Origin: a candidate division Zixibacteria bacterium SM23_81
Lineage (GTDB): Bacteria; SM23-81
Assembly: GCA_001304015.1 (NCBI GenBank)
Contig: LJUY01000033.1
Coordinates: forward strand, 1-27,503
Reading direction: 5' to 3'
Length of the DNA stretch: 27,503 nt
Under the pieces are notes generated by a model, which searched no databases, was not told the origin of the DNA, and saw only the letters and a list, made by a program, of their open reading frames with translations. A program made the position numbers and the translations under genes. This document shows, piece after piece, positions 13,710-14,390 of the stretch (the stretch's first letter is position 1; every line of letters begins with the position of its first letter).

Positions 13710-14261
13710 CTAGGAAGGCTCTTCCTCCACCGTGACCTCGTCGGAGCCGTCAACCTCCTGGACCTTCACCGTAACCCGTTGACCTTGGGAGGTGGGAACG
13801 TTCTTGCCCACATAATCGGCCCGGATGGGCAGCTCCCGATGGCCGCGATCGACTAGCACGGCCAGCTGAACAGACCTGGGACGGCCGAAATCGACCAGCT
13901 GGTCCAGAGCCGCCCGGATGGTCCTGCCCGTGTTGAGCACGTCGTCCACCAGGATGACCACGCGACCGCCGATATCGAAGGGTATCTCTGTCTTATGCAC
14001 CACCGGCTGCTCCAGAACCACCTGAAGATCGTCGCGATACAAGGTGATGTCGATGACCCCCACGGGGATGTTCACTTCCTCAATACCCTCGATGACCTGG
14101 GCGATCCTGGCGGCAAGATAATCTCCCCGAGCCCGGATCCCCACGATGACCAAATTCTGCGCCCCTTTATTGCGCTCGATGATCTCATGGGCGATCCTGG
14201 TCACGGCTCGTTGAACGTCTTTGTTATCCATGATCTGGTTCAAAGATCTTCCCCCGCTCAA
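13710..14261 (-). CDS. pyrR: PyrR, pyrimidine operon attenuator and uracil phosphoribosyltransferase
   Basis: 183 aa. In Firmicutes PyrR binds its own operon leader RNA when UMP or UTP is high and forces termination; it can also have uracil phosphoribosyltransferase activity. The PRPP-binding loop [14 protein letters not shown] is at residues 101-114, and [23 protein letters not shown] and [18 protein letters not shown] are near identical to the B. subtilis protein. The start is TTG at 14261: GAGGAGG lies 6 nt upstream, and the first ten residues align with family N-termini. The ATG at 14231 (MDNKDVQ) is an alternative without a good ribosome site. The TTG sits at the end of the U-tract of the leader terminator. 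Confidence 0.95.
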
Positions 14262-14292
14262 AAAAAACCTCCTCGCCGAAAGGGCAAGAAGG
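14260..14292 (-). terminator. Leader terminator (attenuator) of the pyr operon
   Basis: 10-bp fully paired stem in minus-strand RNA (CCTTCTTGCC, 14292-14283, with GGCGAGGAGG, 14277-14268), 5-nt loop, then eight U residues (14267-14260). The pyrR ribosome-binding site GAGGAGG is the 3' arm of the stem and the pyrR TTG lies at the U-tract end, so the same hairpin could block both transcription and translation. Confidence 0.88.
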
Positions 14293-14347
14293 CCATTATA
14301 CTCCTTCCCTGGGCCCTTTCTAGCCTCACCGTGCTAGTTTAAAGGGC
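14278..14347 (-). promoter_or_regulatory. PyrR-binding RNA element (14313-14347) and antiterminator (14278-14320)
   Basis: The leader RNA holds GCCCUUUAAACUAG, then CACGGUGAGGCUAG and AAAGGGC. The outer GCCCUUU/AAAGGGC and inner CUAG/CUAG stems enclose a segment matching the published PyrR consensus ARUCCNGNGAGGYU at 12 of 14 positions. The 3' arm of this element (GAAAGGGC, 14320-14313) is an exact 8-nt complement of GCCCUUUC in the terminator arm and loop (14285-14278), and GAAGG (14307-14303) pairs with CCUUC (14292-14288). So the binding element and terminator exclude the antiterminator, as in known PyrR attenuators. Confidence 0.85.
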
Positions 14348-14361
14348 AATTCCTGAAGCAA

Positions 14362-14390
14362 TAGATAACACAAAAGATTCATTTTGTCAA
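14362..14390 (-). promoter_or_regulatory. Consensus promoter of the pyr operon
   Basis: TTGACA (14390-14385), 17-bp spacer, TATCTA (14367-14362) on the minus strand. The predicted transcript start near 14355 places the PyrR-binding hairpin at the very 5' end of a leader of about 94 nt. Confidence 0.85.

Follow-up and report, generated by a model that had tools for sequence, protein, structure and literature searches.

A probable Bacillus-type PyrR attenuator before pyrR-pyrB-pyrC in a diderm Zixibacteria bacterium, and two designs of bacterial PyrR leaders

Background

PyrR-dependent pyr attenuators (Rfam family RF00515) have been described in Bacillus subtilis (PMC4403831, PMC4347634) and in Streptococcus pneumoniae (PMC6296669). 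In these systems the terminator folds once PyrR, together with UMP, has stabilised an anti-antiterminator, an effect counteracted by PRPP (PMC4347634, PMC6296669, PMC4403831). The leader analysed here lies in a stretch of 27,503 nucleotides (contig LJUY01000033.1, hereafter the window) from the candidate division Zixibacteria bacterium SM23_81. It resembles that of the B. subtilis pyr operon in the presence of a PyrR-binding hairpin predicted to serve as anti-antiterminator, an antiterminator, a terminator, and pyrR as the first gene. However, it scores below the Rfam cut-off, one site was found against three in B. subtilis, the 5' strand of the loop stem has C-A where the consensus reads U-C, the host is a diderm, and a possible leader reading frame is present.

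Other pyr leaders share part of these features. For the pyr operon of Thermus ZO5, a mechanism without antiterminator was reportedly proposed by Van de Casteele and colleagues (in J Bacteriol, 1997), in which a translating ribosome crosses the terminator under PyrR control. The window shares with that operon the order pyrR-pyrB-(bbc)-pyrC with PyrR and a leader frame across the terminator, whereas an antiterminator is retained both here and in G001, a second genome of this family that lacks the start codon. Mycobacterial PyrR is said to be a translational repressor (Fields and Switzer, 2007), its site controlling translation with no terminator; the window likewise has a PyrR-binding hairpin beside a ribosome-binding site but, unlike the mycobacterial leader, a strong terminator follows. 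Finally, the Escherichia coli pyrBI attenuator involves neither PyrR nor a binding hairpin and depends on UTP-dependent pausing; its leader reading frame overlaps an intrinsic terminator, as in the window.

Results and discussion

The pyr genes and their host

The leader is directly followed by pyrR and pyrimidine genes (Table 1), and the NCBIfam assignments agree with the operon pyrR-pyrB-pyrC named in the preliminary description. The PyrR protein scores as an equivalog of NF003549 and carries the conserved motifs in alignments to 1ufr and 1non, which together with 1a3c are its structural relatives in the PDB. It shares two conserved stretches (13 and 21 residues) with solved PyrR proteins, and the alignment with Thermus PyrR (1ufr) is gap-free through TRIAHEI..NKG and a second conserved 20-residue stretch; the two aligned stretches include residues required for RNA binding. 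A search for carAB found no CPSase large-subunit domain (PF02787) in the window's own genome, which is 93% complete and has pyrB and pyrC, an absence possibly due to genome incompleteness. The host lineage is an LPS diderm, as had been suggested from the surrounding genes, because Omp85 and LpxC are present in its own genome and in three phylum mates, all four genomes of the phylum analysed here.

Elsewhere in the window, two ECF-transporter ATPases (EcfA1 and EcfA2 type) are fused in one frame of 615 aa (15054-16901), and the gap upstream of the promoter contains two perfect inverted repeats (14569-14603 and 14668-14695), the second of which (GTAGGGGCGTATTGCAATACGCCCCTAC) has three copies in the genome, as expected of a small mobile repeat.

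Table 1. Features of the pyr leader and of the downstream genes in the window
Feature	Position	Strand	Evidence and remarks
-35 element TTGACA	14390-14385	minus	sequence; unchanged in G001 though the spacer diverged
Extended -10 element, TGt-TATCTA	14362..14370 (TATCTA 14367-14362)	minus	sequence; TGTTATCTAT unchanged in G001
PyrR-binding hairpin (anti-antiterminator), predicted	14313..14347	minus	RF00515, 42.3 bits; own model R1, 48.1 bits; covariation in 39 leaders
Antiterminator, predicted	14278..14320	minus	8-bp and 7-bp helices, loop of 10 nt; MFE fold of the truncated RNA in both the window and G001
Intrinsic terminator	14260..14293	minus	11-bp stem 14293-14267, -17 kcal/mol; T8 at 14267-14260
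Possible leader frame, 12 codons	14258..14296	minus	sequence; Shine-Dalgarno AAGGAG 14306-14301; function uncertain
pyrR	13710..14243	minus	TTG start, aligned with G001; NCBIfam NF003549, 243.8 bits (cut-off 138)
pyrB, aspartate carbamoyltransferase	12773..13696	minus	NF002032, 411.6 bits; ATG behind GAGGTG
pyrC, dihydroorotase	11425..12759	minus	TIGR00857, 448.6 bits

The 5' part of the leader

The promoter, previously called a consensus one, has a perfect -35 element and a core kept in G001, but its -10 element matches only 3 of 6 consensus positions. TTGACA and TATCTA are separated by 17 nt, and 13 of the 14 spacer bases between TTGACA and TGTTATCTAT differ in G001. We infer a transcription start near 14354, giving the leader RNA AGGAAUUGCCCUUUAAACUAGCACGGUGAGGCUAGAAAGGGCCCAGGGAAGGAGUAUAAUGGCCUUCUUGCCCUUUCGGCGAGGAGGUUUUUUUUGA (minus strand).

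The predicted hairpin consists of an outer stem GCCCUUU/AAAGGGC, a bulge AAA, an inner stem CUAGC/GCUAG and the loop ACGGUGAG. These are the stem-bulge-stem, CNGNGA-type loop and GAGGCU with covarying stem of RF00515, the loop C, G, G and A being invariant; the loop is closed by a non-standard A-G pair in the window, and 7 of the 39 leaders aligned here have no standard pair there. The RF00515 match (14349-14260, E 1.2e-4) is below the gathering score of 54, so that default Rfam annotation misses the hairpin, and a scan of the window at the gathering threshold reported no match. Other matches to RF00515 in the same genome (up to 26 bits) resemble unrelated terminators and were dropped. With R1, our hairpin-only covariance model, the window gives E 1.1e-9, being itself one of the 39 training leaders. 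The 39 hairpins, taken from loci that searches with PyrR and RF00515 retrieved in many phyla, have 93% of alignment cells paired and changes on both sides in 9 of 11 pairs, a pattern abolished in a control where the partner strand was slid. The PyrR-binding hairpin that had been placed at the 5' end of the leader is confirmed by model match and covariation, and the search with the Rfam model that had been proposed as a check retrieves it, albeit under the family threshold.

Mutually exclusive folds

The hairpin 3' strand has a second possible pairing partner in the terminator 5' arm. An exact 8-bp helix joins GAAAGGGC (14320-14313) to GCCCUUUC (14285-14278), as originally noted; by chance such an exact complement arises in about 1% of cases (220 of 20,000 terminator arms shuffled by mononucleotide). 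The second helix, described before as 5 bp long, is present but longer, with 7 pairs, two of them G-U, between GGGAAGG (14309-14303) and CCUUCUU (14292-14286). For an RNA ending within the terminator, the antiterminator has a lower energy than the binding hairpin alone both in the window (-22.6 vs -13.1 kcal/mol) and in G001 (-19.7 vs -10.0 kcal/mol), and the best fold of the full leader of both is the binding hairpin plus the terminator. As in Bacillus-type attenuators, the antiterminator is thus exclusive with both the hairpin and the terminator, and an intrinsic terminator lies between the hairpin and pyrR; the terminator with its U8 and the mutually exclusive fold were correctly described before.

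The energy of the antiterminator is not above that of shuffled sequences. Whole-antiterminator folding, in a test that took in the whole spacer, is no better than dinucleotide shuffles (p 0.37 in the window, p 0.065 in G001), and a duplex-energy test gave p 0.56 in the window, its range of 8 nt behind the hairpin being too short to take in the second helix. The folding energy of the window leader lies at z -1.3 relative to shuffles, and when 10 nt of 5' leader are included, its ensemble is shared by the binding stem (2.9 expected pairs) and the antiterminator (2.0).

Conservation within the phylum

The same arrangement is present before pyrR in G001 (46.1 bits), the one relative in which covariation of the antiterminator was assessed. 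It differs from the window at 1 of 35 positions in the binding hairpin, 10 of 19 in the spacer behind it and 4 of 27 in the terminator, and all pairs are still formed in the hairpin (12/12), the terminator (11/11, 4 changed) and the antiterminator (15/15, 4 changed), a result from one relative that bears on the covariation which the preliminary description had asked to see. Three changes in the 7-nt strand of the longer-than-described second helix leave every pair intact, an outcome of random changes in 1.4% of simulations.

In G002, a genome of the same phylum belonging to a sister family, the leader of pyrR (L006:1270-1412) has TTGACA, TATTAT resembling a -10 element and a strong terminator, but no recognisable PyrR-binding hairpin. 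It possibly represents another attenuator type or has lost the site.

A possible leader reading frame

In the window, AAGGAG-UAUA-AUG (14306-14294), which the preliminary description does not mention, opens a frame that spans the terminator, with its stop right behind the U8 and a Shine-Dalgarno duplex of -8.3 kcal/mol. The Shine-Dalgarno sequence is part of the 7-bp antiterminator helix, whose loop contains the AUG. In a Thermus-type leader, a start codon would be expected to use a Shine-Dalgarno sequence within the hairpin 3' arm and to open a frame into the terminator, with no antiterminator; in contrast, the leader start codon in the window follows the hairpin at a distance of 18 nt and has its own Shine-Dalgarno sequence outside it, no start codon is present at 3-11 nt, and the antiterminator is the MFE structure of the truncated RNA. 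G001 has no start codon at the place equivalent to the window AUG. The frame is probably incidental, and there is a modest chance that it forms a second, ribosome-coupled layer of control in the window. As a separate observation, the U-tract of the terminator is often directly followed by AUG or GUG (TTTTTATG, TTTTTGTG) in leaders of Bacillota and diderms alike (for example L075, L085, L057, L080, L107).

Two designs of PyrR leaders

R1 finds the hairpin upstream of pyrR in most loci. Among 386 genomes from around the lineage of the window, 356 of them with the diderm marker Omp85, it matches 110, and RF00515 matches in 28 of 36 genomes of non-Bacillota records, only two of these 28 exceeding the gathering cut-off. 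PyrR sites outside Bacillota are common, not exceptional. The claim of a PyrR attenuator outside Firmicutes thus stands as regards the complete Bacillus-style switch, but its setting is not rare. No hairpin match was found upstream of pyrR in Negativicutes, which are diderm Bacillota (L044, L059, L064, L082, L090, L096, L099, L101, L102, L106).

Leaders of the two groups differ behind the hairpin, in a comparison that treats sequences as independent, ignoring kinship, and whose named loci were picked by likeness to the window PyrR and labelled from record titles (one of the 30 non-Bacillota belongs to Coriobacteriia). The hairpin 3' arm pairs with the terminator 5' arm above shuffles (p < 0.05) in 14 of 30 Bacillota and 0 of 27 non-Bacillota leaders, and in ensembles of transcripts reaching halfway into the terminator the antiterminator prevails over the outer hairpin stem in 23/30 Bacillota, 1/27 named non-Bacillota and 11/61 leaders of an independent diderm set. 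Conversely, ATG or GTG lies 3-11 nt behind the hairpin AGG in 28 of 30 non-Bacillota leaders (7.8 expected) vs 10 of 30 in Bacillota (8.2 expected; Fisher 2e-6). The independent diderm set has a start codon at this distance in 54 of 73 leaders (24.9 expected), with ATG distances clustering at 6-10 nt. The frame is open to the terminator in 25 of 26 named non-Bacillota leaders vs 5 and 12 in the other frames, and in 39 of 46 leaders of the independent set vs 7 and 25. A start codon together with a dominant antiterminator occurs in 8 of 61 diderm test leaders.

With start codons at that distance, the AAAGG of the hairpin 3' strand can act as a Shine-Dalgarno sequence that would be buried in the closed hairpin. 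In most diderm PyrR leaders a translating ribosome seems to take the place of the second RNA hairpin of Bacillus, as was reportedly proposed for Thermus, and the classic fold does not hold as the diderm pattern. Among the leaders of Omnitrophota, Zixibacteria, Methylomirabilota, Deltaproteobacteria, Aminicenantes and other diderms (L121-L147, L169-L256), most have such a start codon, whose frame enters or crosses the terminator, and no antiterminator. Three leaders (L007, L094, L074) gave no terminator behind the hairpin; a start codon 6-8 nt behind it opens a long frame, which in two of them has no stop within the 330 nt read, an arrangement suggestive of direct translational repression in mycobacterial style. 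Judged by its leader sequence, the window belongs with the Bacillus design, a minority among diderms, because its antiterminator is conserved and a start codon at 3-11 nt is missing.

Proposed regulation and alternatives

We consider it probable that pyrR-pyrB-pyrC is controlled by a Bacillus-type PyrR transcription attenuator. The elements of the leader, their mutually exclusive folds in the two genomes and the conservation of the hairpin are read directly from the DNA, while binding by PyrR, the UMP signal and termination in the cell are inferred. At low UMP, the outer hairpin stem would give up its 3' strand, which together with the spacer would pair with the terminator 5' arm over 8 + 7 bp, blocking the terminator and letting the polymerase read through. 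When UMP is plentiful, PyrR-UMP would keep the binding hairpin closed, the terminator would fold and transcription would stop before pyrR. The start codon and short frame across the terminator, which are not conserved in G001, could add ribosome-dependent readthrough. Against this reading count the shuffle test of folding energy (p 0.37), the split ensemble, the single close relative, the absence of a recognised hairpin in G002, and the majority of diderm leaders without antiterminator.

One alternative is a Thermus-type, ribosome-coupled attenuator, in which PyrR on the hairpin would hinder initiation at AAGGAG-AUG and, without PyrR, a ribosome translating the 12-codon leader across the terminator would prevent its fold, the antiterminator being incidental. 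The strong Shine-Dalgarno sequence, the frame open exactly over the terminator and the predominance of the start-codon design in diderm and other non-Bacillota leaders speak for it. However, the start lies 18 nt behind the hairpin, which does not include its Shine-Dalgarno sequence, G001 keeps the antiterminator and has no start codon there, and pairing with CCUUCUU would in any case call for a purine-rich strand resembling a Shine-Dalgarno sequence; we regard this explanation as rather unlikely. A hybrid of the Bacillus switch and the ribosome-coupled attenuator used by most diderm phyla, in which PyrR on the hairpin blocks the antiterminator as well as the initiation of a leader peptide that would carry a ribosome over the terminator, is also unlikely. 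Antiterminator and leader translation acting together as two layers would fit the presence of both features in the window, a combination known from the few diderm test leaders mentioned above, but the antiterminator and the initiation site overlap and would compete, and the leader start is missing in G001; we regard it as quite improbable. Finally, a terminator behind a degenerate hairpin, as relic or by chance and with no PyrR control, would agree with the Rfam score under the gathering threshold and the leader folding energy (z -1.3). It is very improbable given the R1 score (with the window in training), the intact pyrR directly downstream, and a hairpin almost unchanged in G001 where most bases of the promoter spacer and about half of those of the leader spacer differ.

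Conclusions

The earlier observation is real and was correctly read. A full PyrR attenuator, probably working as in Bacillus, is now documented in a little-known diderm phylum, although the wider pattern is of more interest than the single case. The Rfam threshold conceals most such diderm leaders, and two designs can be separated by sequence alone, the antiterminator of Bacillota and the diderm start codon at Shine-Dalgarno distance. Through this comparison the Thermus proposal of 1997 becomes testable in many lineages.
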